DNA of 64,000 nucleotides from Flammeovirga pectinis (lineage in GTDB: Bacteria; Bacteroidota; Bacteroidia; Cytophagales; Flammeovirgaceae): positions 3,100,001 to 3,164,000 of the forward strand of contig NZ_CP034562.1 in assembly GCF_003970675.1 (NCBI RefSeq). Reading direction: 5' to 3'. The notes beneath the pieces were generated by a model. The model made no database searches and had not been told where the DNA came from. It saw only the letters and a program-made list of their open reading frames with translations. Shown piece after piece: positions 13,257 through 22,727 of this stretch (position 1 is its first letter; each line of letters begins with the position of its first letter). The position numbers and the translations under genes are program-made.

Positions 13257-13333
13257 TGGCGGAACAGACGGGACTCGAACCCGCGACCCCCTGCGTGACA
13301 GGCAGGTATTCTAACCAACTGAACTACTGCTCC
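13257..13333 (-). tRNA. tRNA-Asp (GTC), copy 7 of the array (last transcribed)
   Basis: 77-base tRNA read on the minus strand. Acceptor stem GGAGCAG/CTGTTCC, discriminator G and encoded CCA; anticodon loop CTGTCAC gives anticodon GTC (Asp); T-loop GGTTCGAGTCC is intact. Nearly identical to E. coli tRNA-Asp. Confidence 0.97.
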
Positions 13334-13371
13334 AGTCATCTAGTTTTTGAAAGTCTTGATGAAAGACTTGT

Positions 13372-13448
13372 TGGCGGAACAGACGGGACTCGAACCCGCG
13401 ACCCCCTGCGTGACAGGCAGGTATTCTAACCAACTGAACTACTGCTCC
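13372..13448 (-). tRNA. tRNA-Asp (GTC), copy 6
   Basis: Same sequence and structure as the neighbouring copies, CCA encoded, separated by a 38-base spacer from the copy at 13257. Confidence 0.97.
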
Positions 13449-13486
13449 AGTCATCTAGTTTTTGAAAGTCTTGATGAAAGACTTGT

Positions 13487-13563
13487 TGGCGGAACAGACG
13501 GGACTCGAACCCGCGACCCCCTGCGTGACAGGCAGGTATTCTAACCAACTGAACTACTGCTCC
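13487..13563 (-). tRNA. tRNA-Asp (GTC), copy 5
   Basis: Same sequence as the other copies, CCA encoded, with a 38-base spacer on its 3' side. Confidence 0.97.
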
Positions 13564-13600
13564 AGTCATCTAGTTTTGAAAGTCTTGATGAAAGACTTGT

Positions 13601-13677
13601 TGGCGGAACAGACGGGACTCGAACCCGCGACCCCCTGCGTGACAGGCAGGTATTCTAACCAACTGAACTACTGCTCC
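13601..13677 (-). tRNA. tRNA-Asp (GTC), copy 4
   Basis: Same sequence as the other copies. The spacer to the copy at 13487 is 37 bases, one T shorter than the first two. Confidence 0.97.
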
Positions 13678-13714
13678 AGTCATCTAGTTTTGAAAGTCTT
13701 GATGAAAGACTTGT

Positions 13715-13791
13715 TGGCGGAACAGACGGGACTCGAACCCGCGACCCCCTGCGTGACAGGCAGGTATTCTAACCAACTGAACTACTGCTCC
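13715..13791 (-). tRNA. tRNA-Asp (GTC), copy 3
   Basis: Same sequence as the other copies; 37-base spacer on its 3' side. Confidence 0.97.
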
Positions 13792-13828
13792 AGTCATCTA
13801 GTTTTGAAAGTCTTGATGAAAGACTTGT

Positions 13829-13905
13829 TGGCGGAACAGACGGGACTCGAACCCGCGACCCCCTGCGTGACAGGCAGGTATTCTAACCAACTGAACTACT
13901 GCTCC
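13829..13905 (-). tRNA. tRNA-Asp (GTC), copy 2
   Basis: Same sequence as the other copies; 37-base spacer on its 3' side. Confidence 0.97.
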
Positions 13906-13943
13906 AGTCATCTAGTTTTTGAAAGTCTTGATGAAAGACTTGT

Positions 13944-14020
13944 TGGCGGAACAGACGGGACTCGAACCCGCGACCCCCTGCGTGACAGGCAGGTATTCTA
14001 ACCAACTGAACTACTGCTCC
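13944..14020 (-). tRNA. tRNA-Asp (GTC), copy 1 (first transcribed)
   Basis: Same sequence as the other copies; 38-base spacer on its 3' side. It is the promoter-proximal copy. Confidence 0.97.
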
Positions 14021-14171: not shown

Positions 14172-15440
14172 TCAGATTAAAAAATGGAACATATCCTCAT
14201 TTTCATTCAGTAGTTCAAATTTGTAACCTCTTTTTTCCATTCTGATCATTAATGCATCAAAATCTTCAGGAGATTTCACCTCAATTCCTACTATTGCTGG
14301 AGCCTTTTCTCTATTGACTTTCTTTGTGTACTCAAAATGACAAATATCATCATTTGGTCCTAAAATTTCAATCAAATACTCTCTTAAAGCTCCTGCTCTT
14401 TGTGGGAAACGGATCATGAAGTAATGTTTGTAACCTTCATATAAAAGAGACCTTTGTTTGATCTCTTCCATACGTCCAATATCATTATTAGAGCCACTTA
14501 CAACACAAACTACCTTCTTACCCTTAATCTCGTCTTTAATCGCATCTAGTGCAGATATAGACAAAGCTCCTGCAGGTTCTACAACAATTGCGTCTTCGTT
14601 ATACAACCTTAATATTGTAGAACATACTTTTCCTTCAGGTACTAATATTACATCCTCTAGAAATTGTTTTGCAATTCTAAATGTATTATCACCTACCCTT
14701 TGAACAGCAGCACCATCTACGAACTTCTCAATTTTATCTAGAGTTACTACTCTATCTTGAACAATTGATTCTTTCATTGCTGGAGCTCCTTCTGGTTCTA
14801 CACCATAGATTTTTGTAGCAGGGCTTATTTGTTGAAAATAACTTCCTACTCCAGACGATAGACCACCTCCACCAATTGGCATTACTAGGTAATCTATTTC
14901 TTCTTTAGCATCTTCTAAAATCTCTAACCCAACAGTACCTTGACCTTCGATCACCTTAGGGTCATCAAAAGGATGAATAAAGACTCTGCTTTCCTCTTCA
15001 CAACGTTTCATAGCTGCAGCGTAGGCATCATCAAAAGTATCACCAATAAGTACTACCTCTACTTTATCTTTGCCCCACATTCTAACCTGACTCACCTTTT
15101 GCTTAGGTGTTGGAGCAGGCATATAAATTACACCATGAATTCCCAATAGTTTACAAGAATATGCAACTCCTTGTGCATGATTACCAGCACTCGCACAAAC
15201 AATACCTCTATGCTGCTCTTCTTCAGTTAAAGAAGAGATTTTATTATACGCACCTCTAAGCTTATATGAACGCACAATTTGCAAGTCCTCTCTCTTTAGC
15301 CAAATATCTGCTTGATATCTTTCTGATAAGTTCAAGTTCCTCATTAAAGGCGTTCGCGTAACGACATCCTTTAATTTTCTATGTGCTTTAACTATTGACT
15401 CAACGGTTGGTAAGTCTACAAATTCTTCTGTTTCTTGCAT
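14172..15440 (-). CDS. ilvA: Threonine ammonia-lyase (threonine deaminase)
   Basis: 422 residues. It converts threonine to 2-oxobutanoate, the first committed step to isoleucine. PLP lysine K60 lies in SYKLRGA, and the phosphate-binding glycine loop GGGGLSSG near residue 187. After about residue 325 comes a C-terminal ACT-like regulatory domain (HYFMIRFPQRAGALREYL) of the short single-copy type, so feedback control by isoleucine or valine is plausible. It follows ilvC on the same strand, but a terminator lies between them (15512-15543), so it may also have its own promoter in 15441-15511. Confidence 0.95.
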   Translation of the reverse strand: MQETEEFVDLPTVESIVKAHRKLKDVVTRTPLMRNLNLSERYQADIWLKREDLQIVRSYKLRGAYNKISSLTEEEQHRGIVCASAGNHAQGVAYSCKLLGIHGVIYMPAPTPKQKVSQVRMWGKDKVEVVLIGDTFDDAYAAAMKRCEEESRVFIHPFDDPKVIEGQGTVGLEILEDAKEEIDYLVMPIGGGGLSSGVGSYFQQISPATKIYGVEPEGAPAMKESIVQDRVVTLDKIEKFVDGAAVQRVGDNTFRIAKQFLEDVILVPEGKVCSTILRLYNEDAIVVEPAGALSISALDAIKDEIKGKKVVCVVSGSNNDIGRMEEIKQRSLLYEGYKHYFMIRFPQRAGALREYLIEILGPNDDICHFEYTKKVNREKAPAIVGIEVKSPEDFDALMIRMEKRGYKFELLNENEDMFHFLI

Positions 15441-15564: not shown

Positions 15565-16629
15565 TTACGCTTCAGCTTCTACTTCTTGATTTTCTGGACG
15601 AAGTGCACGTACTGCTGCACCTGCTCTCCACATTTCAGACTCACGTAATACACGTAATTCTTCGTCTAATTTCTCACGGTAATCTGGTTGTGAGTTAGTA
15701 TCGATAGAACGTTGTGCTTCTTCACCTGTAGCTACTGAACGATATAAATCTTCAACTACTGGACGAACTGCATCACGGAATTTATCTTTCCAATCTAATG
15801 CACCACGTTGTGCTGTAGTAGAACAGTTAGCATACATCCAATCCATACCATTTTTAGCAACTAATGGCATTAAAGATTGTGTTAACTCTTCAACAGTTTC
15901 GTTAAATGCTTCAGATGGAGAGTGACCGTTTTCTCTTAACACATCATATTGTGCTTCGAATAAACCTTGAATACCACCCATTAATGATCCACGCTCACCT
16001 GTAAGGTCAGAGAATACTTCTTTTTTGAAGTCAGTTGGGAATAAATATCCAGCACCAACACCAATACCTAAAGAAATAGTTCTGTTATAAGCGTTTCCTG
16101 TAGCATCTTGGTAGATAGCATAAGAAGAGTTCAAACCACGACCTTCTAAGAACATTGTTCTTAAAGAAGTACCTGATCCTTTAGGAGCTACTAAAATTAC
16201 ATCAATATCCTTTGGAGGAACGATGTTAGTACGCTCATGGTAAGTTACACCAAATCCGTGAGAGAAATAAAGTGCTTTACCTGGAGTTAATTTCTCTTTT
16301 AATTGTGGCCATACAGCAATTTGAGCTGCATCAGAAAGAAGGTAACAGATAATAGAACCTTTTTCAGCTGCTTCACCGATTTCGAAAAGTGTTTCACCTG
16401 GTACCCAACCGTCAGCAACAGCTTTGTCCCATGAAGCACCACCTTTACGTTGACCTACGATTACATTAAGACCATTATCACGCATGTTTTGTGCTTGACT
16501 TGGACCTTGTACACCGTATCCGATAACTGCAATAGTTTCTTCTTTTAAAATTCCCTGTGCTTTTGTTAATGGAAATTCTTCACGCATTACTACGTTCTCA
16601 ACTACTCCTCCGAAATTAATCTCTGCCAT
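15565..16629 (-). CDS. ilvC: Ketol-acid reductoisomerase
   Basis: 354 residues. It converts acetolactate or acetohydroxybutyrate to the dihydroxy acid with NADPH and Mg2+. The Rossmann motif GYGVQGPSQAQN lies near residue 37. The QR at the end of the second strand (VIVGQRKG) contacts the cofactor phosphate, and the C-terminal knotted domain carries the metal-binding Asp/Glu residues. The form resembles the compact Bacteroidota type. The ATG at 16629 is chosen because the frame further upstream runs through the 64-base gap after ilvN. Fifth gene of the ilvE-D-B-N-C operon. Confidence 0.95.
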   Translation of the reverse strand: MAEINFGGVVENVVMREEFPLTKAQGILKEETIAVIGYGVQGPSQAQNMRDNGLNVIVGQRKGGASWDKAVADGWVPGETLFEIGEAAEKGSIICYLLSDAAQIAVWPQLKEKLTPGKALYFSHGFGVTYHERTNIVPPKDIDVILVAPKGSGTSLRTMFLEGRGLNSSYAIYQDATGNAYNRTISLGIGVGAGYLFPTDFKKEVFSDLTGERGSLMGGIQGLFEAQYDVLRENGHSPSEAFNETVEELTQSLMPLVAKNGMDWMYANCSTTAQRGALDWKDKFRDAVRPVVEDLYRSVATGEEAQRSIDTNSQPDYREKLDEELRVLRESEMWRAGAAVRALRPENQEVEAEA

Positions 16630-16693: not shown

Positions 16694-17233
16694 TTACACA
16701 ATCGCATCCTCTTGTTCGAACTCTGCTAGTAACGTACTAATTTCTTGACGTTCTTTAGAGAGTGCAATTCTACCTGAACGGCCAAACTGCAATAGACCAA
16801 AAGGTTTTAATGCTTCATATAATGCTTGAGTGTCTTCTTCATGACCAGTTTTTTCAATGACCATAAAATCAGCTTTTGCCGCTAATATTCTAGCATGACT
16901 CTTACGAACAATATTTTCTACTGCATCAGAGTCTGTTAAATTATCAACGCCTACTTTATATAAAGCTACTTCTTGATATATCATTTCCTTGTCTTCGTAA
17001 AGAAAGCAACGAACTACATCAATTTGTTTTTCTATTTGTAATGAAAGCTTTTGCGCTGCACCTACCGTTGCATTAAATACAATTGTAAAACGGTGAATGT
17101 GCTCTACTTCTGAAGCAGATGTAGTTAAGCTTTCAATGTTTAATTTTCTTCTTGAAAAGATAATAGAGATACGGTTTGTTAAACCTACTACGTTCTCTGT
17201 AAATATCGATAATGTAAATCTTTGCTTTTCCAT
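16694..17233 (-). CDS. ilvN: Acetolactate synthase small (regulatory) subunit
   Basis: 179 residues, the usual length. The N-terminal ACT domain starts at FTLSIFTENVVGLTNRISIIFSRR and binds valine for feedback inhibition; the C-terminal half is the second domain that activates the catalytic subunit. It ends 12 bases after ilvB, the gene for its partner, which implies cotranscription and stoichiometric expression. Bacteroidota genomes often label this subunit ilvN or ilvH. Confidence 0.93.
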   Translation of the reverse strand: MEKQRFTLSIFTENVVGLTNRISIIFSRRKLNIESLTTSASEVEHIHRFTIVFNATVGAAQKLSLQIEKQIDVVRCFLYEDKEMIYQEVALYKVGVDNLTDSDAVENIVRKSHARILAAKADFMVIEKTGHEEDTQALYEALKPFGLLQFGRSGRIALSKERQEISTLLAEFEQEDAIV

Positions 17234-17245
17234 AATCTTAATCTT

Positions 17246-18988
17246 TTATTTCAAGCGAACTTCTGATACTGAAGCTCCTGTTTGTATCATAGGGAATACA
17301 TTTGATTCCTGCTCTACAACAACTTCTAAGAAAGATGGACCATCTGAAGCTAACCATTCGTCCATTTTATCGCTTAACGACTCTCTCGTTTCTGCTTTAT
17401 CAGCTTTGATATAATATGACTCTGCTAATTTCACAAAATCTGGATTTACCATTTCTGTAAAAGAATAGCGTCTATCAAAGAATAATTCCTGCCATTGACG
17501 TACCATTCCTAAGAAGCTATTATTCAATACTAAAATCTTTACAGGGATTTTATATTGGAAAATAGTACCCAATTCTTGTACTGTCATTTGGTAACCTCCA
17601 TCTCCAGAAATAGAAACTACTGTTCTATCGGGTGCTCCAACCTTTGCTCCAATAGCTGCCGGTAATGCAAAACCCATAGTTCCTAAACCTCCTGAACTTA
17701 CAATACTATCAGTTTTTTTAAACTCATAATATCTTGAAGCTTCCATTTGATGTTGTCCAACATCAGTTACTACAACAGCTTCGCCTTTAGTTTTATCAGA
17801 TAACATTCTGATTACTTCAGACATTTTCACTTTTTCTGTAGATGAACCTAATGCGTAATCAAGAACTTCTTCTTTTTCTATTTTATCACAAGCATGGAAT
17901 TCTGCAACCCACTTTACATGTTCTCTCTTTTCTATTTTTGGTAGAATACGTTCAAGAGCCGTTTTAGCATCAGAAATGACAGCTACTTCAGTTTTTACAT
18001 TTTTATCAACCTCAGAAGGGTCAATCTCAAAATGTATTACTTTAGCCTGCTTAGCATAACGAGATAAATCTCCTGTAACACGATCATCAAAACGCATACC
18101 TATTGCTATCAAAACATCACATTCGTTTGTTTTGATATTAGCACCATAATTACCATGCATTCCCAAGTATCCAACATATAATGGATGGTCTACAGGAACT
18201 GCTGATAACCCTAAAAGGGTTGACGCCATTGGAATACCTGATTTTTCAGCGAATGCAATTAATTCTTCTTCTGCTTTAGAAAGCATCACACCATGTCCAA
18301 CAAGGATATAAGGCTTTTTTGCTTGATTGATTAATGCTGCTGCTGCATCTATAGATTCTTCTGTAGCTGTAGGAACTGGTCTATAGCTACGAATATTTTC
18401 ACAACGCTTATATTCAAAATCAAACTCTTCGAATTGAGCATCTTTTGTAATATCTATTAATACAGGACCTGGTCTACCACTTTTTGCAATAAAAAATGCT
18501 TTCGCTAATGCTTCTGGAATTTCTGAAGCTTTAGTTACTTGATAATTCCATTTTGTAACAGGAGTTGAAATACCTACTACATCAGTTTCCTGAAAAGCAT
18601 CAGTCCCTAATAAATGAGATGCTACTTGACCTGTAATTGCTACCATAGGTGTTGAATCTATCATAGCATCTGCCAAACCTGTAATTAAGTTTGTAGCTCC
18701 AGGACCTGAAGTTGCAATACAGACGCCCACTTTATGATTGACTCGAGCGTAACCTTGAGCCGCATGTGTTGCACCTTGCTCATGACGCACTAAGTAGTGC
18801 TTAATCTTGTCTTCATAATGGTAGAGTTTATCATAAAATGGCATGATAGCCCCACCTGGATAACCAAAAAGTGTATCTACTCCCTCTTCTAAGAATGCCA
18901 TAAGCACTGCTTCTGCTCCACTTACCCTTTTTGTCGTCTGGCCAACTACTTGTTCTTCATTGGACATCTCTTTTGTCGCTGTACTCAT
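17246..18988 (-). CDS. ilvB: Acetolactate synthase large (catalytic) subunit
   Basis: 580 residues, a three-domain thiamine-diphosphate enzyme. It condenses two pyruvates, or pyruvate and 2-oxobutanoate. Catalytic E70 lies in [15 protein letters not shown]; the TPP/Mg motif runs from [13 protein letters not shown] to LNN in the C-terminal domain; a central FAD-binding domain lies between (RFDDRVTG is a recognisable segment). It lies between ilvD (41 bases upstream) and ilvN (12 bases downstream). Confidence 0.96.
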
Positions 18989-19029: not shown

Positions 19030-20712
19030 TTAAAATTCATCTGTTACACATCCCTCAGATGCTGAAGAAACTGTCTTTATATACTTATATAAAATACCTT
19101 TTTTGAATTTTGGTTCCGGAGCAACCCAATTTTTTCTTCTTTCGGCTAATTCTTCATCAGAAACACCTACAGAAATTTGGTTGGTAATTGCATCAATTGT
19201 AATAATATCACCATCATTTACTAATGCGATATTACCACCAACAGCTGCTTCTGGAGTAATATGCCCCACAACAAAACCGTGAGTACCTCCTGAGAAACGT
19301 CCATCTGTAATTAATGCGACTTCTTTACCTAAGCCGACACCCATAATTGCTGATGTTGGTTTAAGCATTTCTGGCATACCAGGACCTCCTTTAGGACCTT
19401 CGTAACGGATAACTACTACATCACCCTTACTTACTTCACCTGCCTGAATACCTGCTATTACTGCAAACTCATCATTATACACTTTTGCAGGACCAACAAA
19501 TTTCTCACCTTCTTTACCAGTAATCTTAGCTACAGAACCTTCCGTTGCCAAGTTTCCATAAAGAATTTGTAAGTGACCTGTTGATTTAATTGGATTATCT
19601 TGAGGGCGTAATAAATCTTGTTCGCCACCTAAAGGTTTAACATCTGCTAAGTTCTCAGCAATTGTTTTACCTGTAACGGTCATACAAGTTCCATCAATTA
19701 GGCCCCAATCTAATAATGTTCTCATTACTGCAGGAATACCTCCTACTGCAAAAACATCTTCCATTAAATATTTACCTGAAGGCTTAAGATCTGCTAAGAA
19801 TGGCACTTTATCAGAAACTCTTTGAATATCATCCAAAGTTAATTTGATATCTGCTGCTTTAGCGATAGCTAACATATGCAACGTTGCATTTGTAGAACCA
19901 CCTAATGCCATGATTACCGTTAAAGCATTGTCAAAAGATGCTTTTGTAAGTATATCTGATGGCTTAAGATCTAATTTTAATATATGATGCATTGAAGCAC
20001 CTAAATTTTTACATTCTGCTCTCTTCTCTGCACTAACTGCAGGGTTTGATGAAGAATAAGGTAAACTCATACCCATAGCTTCAATTGCTGAAGCCATTGT
20101 ATTAGCTGTATACATACCTCCACATGCTCCTGCACCTGGAATAGCATTTTTTATTACCCCTTTATAATCTTCGTCAGATATTGTTCCTGCAATTCTTTCA
20201 CCCAAGGCTTCAAATGCTGATACAATATTTAATTTTTTATTTTTAAAACATCCTGATGCAATAGTACCACCATACAACATAATTGTTGGACGGTTAATAC
20301 GACACATTGCCATCATTGCTCCAGGCATATTTTTATCACAACCAACAACAGTAATTAAGCCATCGTAAAATTGACCGTTTACTACAGTTTCAACAGAGTC
20401 TGCAATAATATCTCTTGATGGAAGTGAGTAACGCATACCTATTGTACCGTTTGTAATACCGTCACTTACACCAATAGTATTAAAAATCAAGCCTACTAAA
20501 CCCTCTTTCTGAACACCTACTTTAACAATAGCTGCTAGATCATTTAGATGCATGTTACAAGTATTTCCTTCATAACCAGTACTTGCAATACCAATTTGAG
20601 GTTTTTTCATATCATCATCTGTAAGACCAATACCATAAAGCATTGCTTGAGCAGCAGGCTGTGTATCGTCTTGAGTAATAGTACGGCTGTGTTTGTTTAA
20701 CTCCTCTGCCAT
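19030..20712 (-). CDS. ilvD: Dihydroxy-acid dehydratase
   Basis: 560 residues. It dehydrates dihydroxy acids to the 2-keto acids of valine and isoleucine. Three conserved cysteines that hold the Fe-S cluster are present: C52 (EGNTCNMH), C125 (GCDKNMPG) and C197 (GAGACGGM). The C-terminal [20 protein letters not shown] motif is intact. It sits 29 bases downstream of ilvE in the operon. Confidence 0.96.
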
Positions 20713-20741: not shown

Positions 20742-21638
20742 TTAAATAATTGAGTAATTGTCATACTCACTTTGTGTTACAAATTGTCTGTACTTTTCAA
20801 ATACTTCACATCCAATGGTATCATCCCAATCTTTTTTCATTGCTCTACCATCAATGCTACTAATACCTGTAATCTGAGCTGCAGTACCTGTAAAGAAAGC
20901 TCCATCAATATCGTTAAGATCTTCTGGTTTGTATTGCCCTTCTACCACTTCAACTCCAAGACTTTTTGCAATACCAAATACTACTTCACGAGTAATACCT
21001 GGATAGATATGTCCTTTTTGAGAAGTATATAACTTACCACCTTTTTCAAAAAAGAAATTAGCACCAGTTCCTTCTGCAACATATCCTTCAACATCTAATA
21101 AGATTGCATCATCAAAACCTCTTTCTTTAGCTTCTGCAATAGAAACAATTGAATTAATATAGTGACCAGAAATTTTAGCTTCTACATTAAAAGAATATGG
21201 GCTAGGACGAGTATATGTTGAAATTGTTATATCTAATAAATCTTTACCCAAAAATTTATCCCATCTCCACGCTGCAATAAAAATATTGTTCGTTTTAGTA
21301 GGTGTTAGATCCATATTTGCACTTGCGTAAACCAATGGTCTAACGTATGCATCCTTGAATCCATTTTCTTCAAGTAATTGGTATGTTATTCCTACAAGCT
21401 CATCAACAGAATAATCTAGGTTCAAGTGCATTGTTTTTGCCGCTTCAACAAATCTAGTATAATGTTGTCTTGCTTTGAATATATGTGGACCTAAAGCAGT
21501 ATCATAAGCTCTTACCGCATCAAAAACTCCGTTACCGTAGTGTAAAGACTGCGAAAAAAGATCTGCTTTTGCCTCTTCAGCCTTGATAAATTCTCCGTTA
21601 TGGAAAATTACTGTATCCTTATCATAATATTTTAACAT
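20742..21638 (-). CDS. ilvE: Branched-chain amino-acid aminotransferase
   Basis: 298 residues, fold-type IV PLP enzyme. It performs the last step to valine, leucine and isoleucine. The PLP lysine is K155 in EAKISGHY; the YVRPLVYAS segment and the [11 protein letters not shown] motif are typical. The frame remains open to a TTG at 21668, but the ATG at 21638 fits the family N-terminus ([14 protein letters not shown]). First structural gene of the operon: the attenuator terminator ends 62 bases upstream and the Ile/Val/Leu leader peptide lies beyond it, so expression should rise on branched-chain aminoacyl-tRNA shortage. Confidence 0.95.
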
Positions 21639-21700: not shown

Positions 21701-21741
21701 AAAAAAACCACTGTCATAATTTTTATTCAATCTGACAATGG
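21701..21741 (-). terminator. Attenuator terminator of the ilv operon
   Basis: In transcript sense CCATTGTCA (21741-21733) pairs with TGACAGTGG (21716-21708) over 9 bp including one G-U, with a 16-base loop. Seven T follow (21707-21701). It stands between the leader peptide and ilvE on the same strand, where an ordinary terminator would silence the operon, so its formation must be conditional. Confidence 0.88.
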
Positions 21742-21789
21742 CCTGTATTTATTTCTTGTATTCACAAAATATATATCCCGACCATTATC
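21734..21789 (-). promoter_or_regulatory. Antiterminator of the ilv attenuator
   Basis: In transcript sense GATAATGGTC (21789-21780), which spans the leader stop codon, can pair over ten consecutive positions (two G-U) with GGCCATTGTC (21743-21734). The second segment contains most of the 5' arm of the terminator, so the two hairpins exclude each other. A ribosome at the leader stop would cover the first segment and let the terminator form. A ribosome stalled at the upstream Ile/Val/Leu codons would leave it free and allow readthrough. Confidence 0.82.
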
Positions 21790-21856
21790 TTTCCTTCAGC
21801 AGGACGACAATCGTTTTTCTAATAATTAGGACAATATTTTGCGTTTTATTCAACAT
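21785..21856 (-). CDS. ilv operon leader peptide, Ile/Val/Leu-rich (23 residues)
   Basis: ATG at 21856, TAA at 21787-21785, too short for ordinary gene finding. Eleven of 23 residues are branched-chain: I8 V9 L10 I11 I12, then I16 V17 V18 L19 L20, plus L2. The second block is written ATT GTC GTC CTG CTG and ends four codons before the stop. CTG and GTC are uncommon in this AT-rich genome, where TTA and GTA/GTT prevail, which should make translation sensitive to charged tRNA. Promoter spacing places the transcription start about a dozen bases before the ATG. The peptide itself presumably has no function; its translation senses amino-acid supply. Confidence 0.88.
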   Translation of the reverse strand: MLNKTQNIVLIIRKTIVVLLKER

Positions 21857-21875
21857 ATCTGATCATTGTTTACAT

Positions 21876-21908
21876 CAAATATAAAGATCTTCCGTTTTAA
21901 TTTGCAAA
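21876..21908 (-). promoter_or_regulatory. Promoter of the ilv operon
   Basis: On the minus strand a perfect -7 element TATATTTG (21883-21876) and a perfect -33 TTTG (21908-21905) are separated by 21 bases, inside the 17-23 range of the Bacteroidota primary sigma factor. Predicted start near 21869, then the leader ATG at 21856. The rest of the 447-base gap 21639-22085 is otherwise free of genes. Confidence 0.75.
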
Positions 21909-22085: not shown

Positions 22086-22727
22086 ATGATTCAAAGAGTA
22101 GGCAGTTTTGTAAGAAACAAGATGTTTCCAAGCTTAACTTGGAAAAAAGAAAAAGGTGAACATCCTAGTATATATCTTACTTTTGATGATGGTCCTATCC
22201 CAGAAATTACTCCATGGGTTTTAGACCTTTTGAAAGAGTACAATGCTAAAGCAACTTTCTTTTGTGTTGGTGATAATATCAAGAAATACCCTGATACATA
22301 TAATAAAGTTTTAGAAGAAGGCCACACAGTAGGTAACCATACTTTTAATCATCTTCAATATTGGAAAAATGGTTTATCGAAATACCTTAAAAATATTGAT
22401 GAGTGCGAAAAGTGGCTAAATTCTAATAATAAGTTTATTGAAAAGAAACCTCGAAAACTTTTTAGACCTCCACATGGGCAAATTGGCAAAAAACTTTTAC
22501 AAAAAGTCTTACCTGATTATGAGATTATCATGTGGCATGTTTTAACAAGAGATTACAATAAAAACTACAACGAAGAGACTTGTTTAAAAACAGCAATTAA
22601 GCTAACAGAAGACGGGTCAATCGTTGTTTTTCATGATAGTTTAAAAGCAGAAAAGAATTTAAAATACGTTTTACCTCGTTTTTTAGCATTTTTTTCGAAA
22701 AAAGGGTACAAATTTAAATCTCTTTAA
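22086..22727 (+). CDS. Polysaccharide deacetylase family protein (NodB domain)
   Basis: 213 residues, one NodB domain. Motifs in order: LTFDDGP (general base and metal Asp pair), GNHTFNH (the H-x-x-x-H metal ligands), RPPHGQIG, MWHVLTRDY and the closing IVVFHDS. The family removes N- or O-acetyl groups from glycans; the target here is unknown (peptidoglycan or surface polysaccharide). No clear signal peptide is visible, although the first 20 residues are basic. A perfect TATATTTG -7 element is at 22051-22058, without a convincing -33 box. It is divergent from the ilv operon and 81 bases before parA. Confidence 0.87.
   Translation: MIQRVGSFVRNKMFPSLTWKKEKGEHPSIYLTFDDGPIPEITPWVLDLLKEYNAKATFFCVGDNIKKYPDTYNKVLEEGHTVGNHTFNHLQYWKNGLSKYLKNIDECEKWLNSNNKFIEKKPRKLFRPPHGQIGKKLLQKVLPDYEIIMWHVLTRDYNKNYNEETCLKTAIKLTEDGSIVVFHDSLKAEKNLKYVLPRFLAFFSKKGYKFKSL

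Follow-up and report, generated by a model that had tools for sequence, protein, structure and literature searches.

The minus strand at 21908–21701 of the Flammeovirga pectinis window (the whole 64,000-nt stretch that was analysed, positions 3,100,001–3,164,000 of NZ_CP034562.1) very probably carries a four-segment ribosome-mediated transcription attenuator of the trp/his type that controls ilvEDBNC. The basis in hand comprises the parts themselves, their conservation, covariation in three strands and the predicted folds. The attenuator is very likely real because relatives keep the parts while the letters change. The initial annotation had already read the region as a ribosome-mediated attenuator, and that reading was supported, but it overlooked segment 1, the downstream ilvA and the spread in the phylum.

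The promoter-like pair TTTG-N21-TATATTTG is located at 21876–21908 on the minus strand, with TTTG at 21908–21905, a spacer of 21 nt and TATATTTG at 21883–21876. When 280 nt were shuffled 5000 times, 46 shuffles contained a TTTG-N19..21-TANNTTTG pair. The leader ORF MLNKTQNIVLIIRKTIVVLLKER (21785–21856, minus strand), read from the sequence, has 23 codons plus TAA, and 11 of its 23 residues are Ile, Leu or Val. The main control codons ATT GTC GTC CTG CTG occupy 21797–21811 on the same strand. The leader stop TAA (21787–21785) lies inside the antiterminator 5′ arm, 146 nt upstream of ilvE. GTC and CTG make up 4.9% of Val and 1.2% of Leu codons, respectively, in 14 genes of the window totalling 4797 codons.

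The four-segment trp/his design arises because base pairing also links the control codons to the antiterminator arm. Segment 1 is this control-codon stretch (21801–21814), which pairs with segment 2 through AC/GT, ATTGTC/GATAAT and TCCT/AGGA, according to predicted folds and synonymous recoding. Segment 2 is the antiterminator 5′ arm GATAATGGTC across the leader stop (21780–21789), identified by sequence, covariation and folds. Segment 3 is the shared arm GGCCATTGTCA (21733–21743; covariation and folds), which acts as the antiterminator 3′ arm and the terminator 5′ arm. Segment 4 is the terminator 3′ arm TGACAGTGG (21708–21716; sequence and covariation), and the U7 tract of the terminator was read from the sequence at 21701–21707. 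All four segments and the U7 tract are on the minus strand. The antiterminator joins GATAATGGTC (21789–21780) with GGCCATTGTC (21743–21734) by 10 pairs including G-U, and the terminator joins CCATTGTCA (21741–21733) with TGACAGTGG (21716–21708) by 9 pairs, one of which is G-U. The terminator hairpin has a 9-bp stem and a dG of approximately −13.9, and 62 nt separate the U7 tract from ilvE. A simple promoter/terminator scan with a loop limit of 8 nt missed this terminator, whose loop is 16 nt as drawn. The initial annotation had described the promoter, a 23-codon leader with 11 Ile/Val/Leu residues, rare GTC and CTG codons, an antiterminator arm overlapping the leader stop, and a terminator sharing an arm with the antiterminator before U7, in this order; each of these was found between 21908 and 21701.

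Folding of the 174-nt leader RNA gave a z of −4.24, which was equalled by 0 of 200 shuffles. The ribosome-free RNA was predicted to form both the 1:2 hairpin and the terminator (−42.1). The predicted fold was the antiterminator (−21.5) when segment 2 was free (RNA from 21796 or 21790) and the terminator (−18.7) when the RNA was free only from 21778 or 21772. The claim that masking segment 2 favours the terminator and freeing it favours the antiterminator thus agrees with the predictions, in which the ribosome footprint was assumed. Once segment 2 was freed, the margin of the antiterminator over the terminator was small, about 2.6 kcal/mol by constrained MFE (−21.5 vs −18.9) and about 2.0 by ensemble. 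The 1:2 hairpin was predicted in 9/9 genus members and beat synonymous recodings there, with a mean z of −3.07 (8/9 below −2; L008 at −1.1). The mean z was −0.77 in the other family loci, 0.02 in the order and −0.43 in the phylum set. Outside the genus, the recoding test showed no general excess stability of the 1:2 hairpin, although values below −2 occurred in one of the 12 order loci and three of the 15 phylum loci.

We infer the transcription start, leader translation, stalling, ribosome footprint and read-through as follows. RNA polymerase would begin transcription near 21870, with immediate translation of the leader ORF. When charged Ile-, Val- and Leu-tRNA are ample, the ribosome would reach the stop and cover segment 2, and the 3:4 terminator would form. 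Under shortage, it would stall on ATT-GTC-GTC-CTG and cover segment 1, leaving segment 2 free for 2:3 pairing, which would block the terminator and allow ilvEDBNC to be transcribed. Without translation, 1:2 and 3:4 would both form and transcription would stop.

The gene order ilvE-D-B-N-C, as given by the initial annotation, was borne out, with each of the five genes passing the cut-off of one or more NCBIfam models. These minus-strand genes encode the branched-chain amino acid transaminase ilvE (20742–21638, ATG at 21638; TIGR01122), the dihydroxy-acid dehydratase ilvD (19030–20712; TIGR00110), the acetolactate synthase large subunit ilvB (17246–18988; TIGR00118) and small subunit ilvN (16694–17233; TIGR00119), and the ketol-acid reductoisomerase ilvC (15565–16629; TIGR00465). 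We infer the ilvC start near MAEINF, and its open frame extends to 16707. The threonine ammonia-lyase gene ilvA (14172–15440, minus strand; over the TIGR02079 cut-off) lies 3′ of ilvC. A terminator-like hairpin (approximately 15543–15515, minus strand) separates the two genes, so ilvA would be part of the operon only if this hairpin is read through. The upstream neighbour at 22086 is divergent; since it runs the opposite way, the leader terminator does not merely mark where an operon stops.

The genus search covered nine genomes including that of the window, and the gene was present in 9/9. Among the 18 genomes of the family search, 17 had the gene, and eight of the loci came from outside the genus. 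In the alignment of the nine genus members, the leader and arms are conserved along with the promoter boxes and the T tract. If either TTTG or CTTG is allowed as the first box and either TATATTTG or TATATTTA as the second, at N21 spacing, 14 of 16 family loci have the pair, 11 of them as exact TTTG-N21-TATATTTG; the scripted search of these 16 loci did not find the pair in L033 and L034. The genus leaders vary in length by one codon with the frame kept (9/9), and all five distinct leaders have GTC GTC followed by a CTN codon. Pairwise differences among the five at codon positions 1, 2 and 3 numbered 21, 31 and 70. The 94 differing codon pairs consisted of 40 synonymous differences, 13 I/L/V exchanges and 41 others, and these 41, being non-synonymous outside I/L/V exchanges, count against the attenuator reading.

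Outside the genus, leader, arms and terminator were found in 7 of the 8 family loci, where the arms were altered yet still paired; no leader or arms were visible in the eighth (L035). Genus members and L028 have CCATTGTC as the core of the shared arm, L029 has CCATTATC and L030–L034 have CCTTTCTC; the antiterminator arm varies together with this core, and so does the terminator 3′ arm. Compensatory change was seen in all three strands across the family, and T5 positions 3 and 6 covary with both partners. The mean AT:T5 pairing was 7.75 of 8 within a row and 5.97 with the different T5 of another row (8 distinct rows, 16 loci). L028 and L029 each have one mismatch in the best 8-base antiterminator register, at a shifted position. 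The Ile/Leu/Val codons and the mutually exclusive pairing, which homologues were expected to lose if the initial reading was wrong, were both kept in 9/9 genus members and 7/8 other family loci.

Leaders before other amino-acid operons of the genus were also searched. A WWW leader and a terminator were found upstream of trpE in 9/9 genus members (L190–L198), and the sequence suggests that this leader may be a parallel trp attenuator. Rfam at gathering score, including RF01692, gave no match at the four of nine Flammeovirga trpE loci tested. An attenuator was found within 700 nt in 0/9 members each for leuA, hisG and the top-scoring aspartokinase locus.

The terminator and antiterminator could be real and yet respond to a protein, a small molecule or an uncharged tRNA (RNA-binding protein, riboswitch or T-box), with the ORF being incidental. 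Such systems all have terminator/antiterminator pairing in common, and the leader is well folded throughout, which would suit them. However, Rfam at gathering score gave no match in the leader region or in 20 related loci, and even at E up to 10 the matches to the leader were only at chance level; across the window, it gave seven tRNA matches, all away from the leader. In addition, the conserved stretch 5′ of the arms is an open frame in which differences are commonest at third positions, and the leader residues track the operon (I/L/V for ilv and WWW for trp). A sensor other than the ribosome is therefore very unlikely. The leader ORF might instead serve re-initiation or ribosome loading, or encode a small functional peptide, with the hairpin being a constitutive partial terminator. 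Leader-peptide re-initiation has been proposed, with a Bacteroidetes distance peak at 11–14 bp (PMC4833913). Three points make this explanation extremely unlikely: the leader stop stands 146 nt from ilvE, far past this peak; it shares bases with the antiterminator arm; and three-strand covariation is seen in the arms. Ile codons and T runs are frequent in AT-rich sequence, but a chance arrangement in AT-rich intergenic DNA has a negligible probability, as none was as good when the 400-nt ilvE upstream region was dinucleotide-shuffled 3000 times (13 shuffles gave any detector match) and the arrangement is conserved across genus, family and order.

The distribution of the ribosome-mediated attenuator was examined with the same detector, which demanded a terminator of −9 kcal/mol or lower, a leader with at least 6 I/L/V per 10 residues and an antiterminator duplex of −6 or lower. 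The order search covered 194 genomes, of which 43 had the gene at E ≤ 1e-70; with G002 and G009 added, this gave 45 ilvE loci, nine of them genus members and thus close relatives. The detector was positive within 600 nt upstream of ilvE in 38 of the 45 loci. The controls gave 8/900 shuffles, 1/45 reverse complements and 0–6/45 for ten other residue sets, of which FML (6/45) is not an independent control because Leu is common to FML and I/L/V. No detector match was obtained in the other seven ilvE loci (L035, L037, L042, L049, L159, L163 and L166), and L042 and L159 nevertheless have a strong terminator.

The phylum search for ilvD matched 105 of 257 genomes at E ≤ 1e-150. It gave 105 places of 1500 nt each, with the locus of the window omitted and G035 counted twice; G035, G046, G077 and G090 are in both the ilvD and ilvE sets. 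The detector was positive before ilvD in 45/105 loci, vs 23/420 shuffles and 4/105 reverse complements, and gave no match in 60/105. These 60 loci and the seven negative ilvE loci speak against the attenuator reading, as do the negative results at leuA, hisG and aspartokinase, the lack of an Rfam match and the small energy margin of the antiterminator. Matches that were doubtful by eye, such as L066, L081, L124, L129 and L152, were left in the 45/105. By kinship, the positives were 8/10 in the order, 24/43 in the class and 13/52 beyond it, and the last rose to 22/52 if the antiterminator was not demanded. Families f27, f32, f31, f56, f37 and f49, with 3–5 loci each, had no detector match before ilvD. 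Possible tandem attenuators, with two successive branched-chain leaders before one gene and a terminator for each, were seen in L039, L044, L045, L056, L080, L104 and L123. Two further loci among the nine flagged as tandem, L129 and L150, were false by eye.

The valine codons of the leaders were counted with one leader per locus, at detector-positive loci with adjacent gene sequence. L066 and L073 were excluded beforehand as doubtful, and the 43 loci counted were L001–L009, L028–L034 and 27 of L036–L080. GTC accounted for 94 of the 143 leader Val codons. Its fraction was 0.96 in the genus (28 codons), 0.57 in the family (35), 0.61 in the order (31) and 0.57 in the phylum (49), and the pooled fractions in the adjacent genes of these sets were 0.01, 0.06, 0.13 and 0.07. 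The leader GTC share was above that of its own adjacent gene in 39/43 loci, the exceptions being L036, L048, L053 and L057. Pooled by family, leader GTC was above the genes in 10/10 families, some of them on 1–2 codons. Leader Ile is mostly ATT, so a general preference for codons ending in C does not account for the bias. The trp leaders of the genus, which are related sequences, used GTA or GTT in 23/23 Val codons and no GTC. That GTC and CTG were chosen solely to build the 1:2 hairpin fits the genus (−3.07) but fails in the other sets as a whole.

GTC as a mark of a rare isoacceptor tRNA-Val(GAC) was also considered and rejected, as no such tRNA was found in Flammeovirga. ARAGORN on 30 candidate loci (10 of the 30 from the first tRNA search and a further 20) gave eight tRNA-Val, which form a single cluster in G000 and all have UAC. 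The GAC anticodon pattern gave four matches, none of them a tRNA-Val, vs three and four in the controls; a pattern of this form recovers 28 of the 39 distinct tRNAs known from the window's genome. Among the matches listed, a stricter GAC/UAC pattern found nothing but UAC in the four genus members drawn (G000, G003, G004 and G006), and a tRNA-Val(GAC) gene in at least three other genomes of the order (G013, G014 and G018). The tRNA inventory may be incomplete because tRNA-Ile(GAU), which must exist, was likewise not found and the first tRNA search scored 150 of 607 candidates. Only tRNA-Val(UAC) was found in Flammeovirga, so GTC would be read there by wobble. G013, in which the GAC gene is present, also uses GTC (3/6 leader Val codons in L032), so the lack of tRNA-Val(GAC) is not required.

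We tentatively speculate that Bacteroidota have a wide range of branched-chain attenuators, some of them tandem, in which valine is sensed via GUC alone, the signal coming from slow wobble decoding and not from a rare isoacceptor. This joint reading is possible and on balance somewhat doubtful. Selective charging of isoacceptors has been offered as the reason for the codon bias of E. coli leaders (PMC1183508), and the GUC-sensing reading is a codon-level variation on this idea. In it, GUC would be the valine codon with the weakest or scarcest decoding route.

Attenuation of ilv operons is classical. Ribosome-mediated attenuation requires transcription and translation in close step, and Bacteroidota ribosomes largely do not use Shine-Dalgarno sites. 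A conserved Bacteroidota attenuator is a ready in vivo test of transcription-translation coupling in the phylum and offers a concrete model for ilv and trp operon control in Flammeovirga. Both the spread among relatives and the favouring of a single valine codon merit follow-up, and the GTC bias is a clean test of what makes control codons sensitive. The mechanism class is already known, and related lineages are already suspected of using it; the segment 1 pairing and the leader GTC bias make the present case somewhat more interesting than a plain instance. Work by Lopatovskaya in 2010 reportedly may cover Bacteroidetes. Flavobacterium psychrophilum belongs to the same phylum as Flammeovirga and to a different order. 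Strong clues of leader-peptide attenuation have been reported upstream of its amino-acid operons (PMC9723704), in passages that give no leader sequence, covariation or codon analysis. The initial annotation states that candidate attenuators had been proposed for such operons in Bacteroidetes. Small ORFs reminiscent of attenuation leader peptides were described in Bacteroides thetaiotaomicron (PMC7366714). According to a 2010 survey, leader-peptide systems were previously known only in Proteobacteria and Actinobacteria, and the survey added Firmicutes (PMC2965389).

Ribosome-mediated attenuators of E. coli and Salmonella include trp, his, leu, thr, ilvGMEDA, ilvBN and pheA (PMC1183508). By description, the Flammeovirga leader is like them in its short leader ORF, clustered control codons, 1:2, 2:3 and 3:4 pairings and U-tract terminator, and differs in phylum, promoter type and gene order. 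It also resembles the ilvB-II (Corynebacterium), ilvB (Leptospira) and ilvB-OMG (41 representatives, various phyla) RNA motifs, for which a branched-chain-rich uORF before ilv genes is described and attenuation proposed; the ilvB-II motif is also described with a terminator stem (PMC10272879). Some ilvB-OMG members may be relatives of the Flammeovirga leader, as compared by description only. The Bacteroid-trp RNA motif RF01692 (PMC2864571) is a Bacteroidetes cis-regulatory candidate that is, by name, relevant to the trpE leaders. Among the literature matches listed, which covered few subscription papers, no title or abstract opening described the Flammeovirga leader or the GTC bias.

Seven tandem tRNA-Asp genes were observed at 13257–14020 of the window. 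A 179-aa repeat ORF (13462–14001), on the strand opposite to the tRNA-Asp array, is read off the array and is probably no gene.
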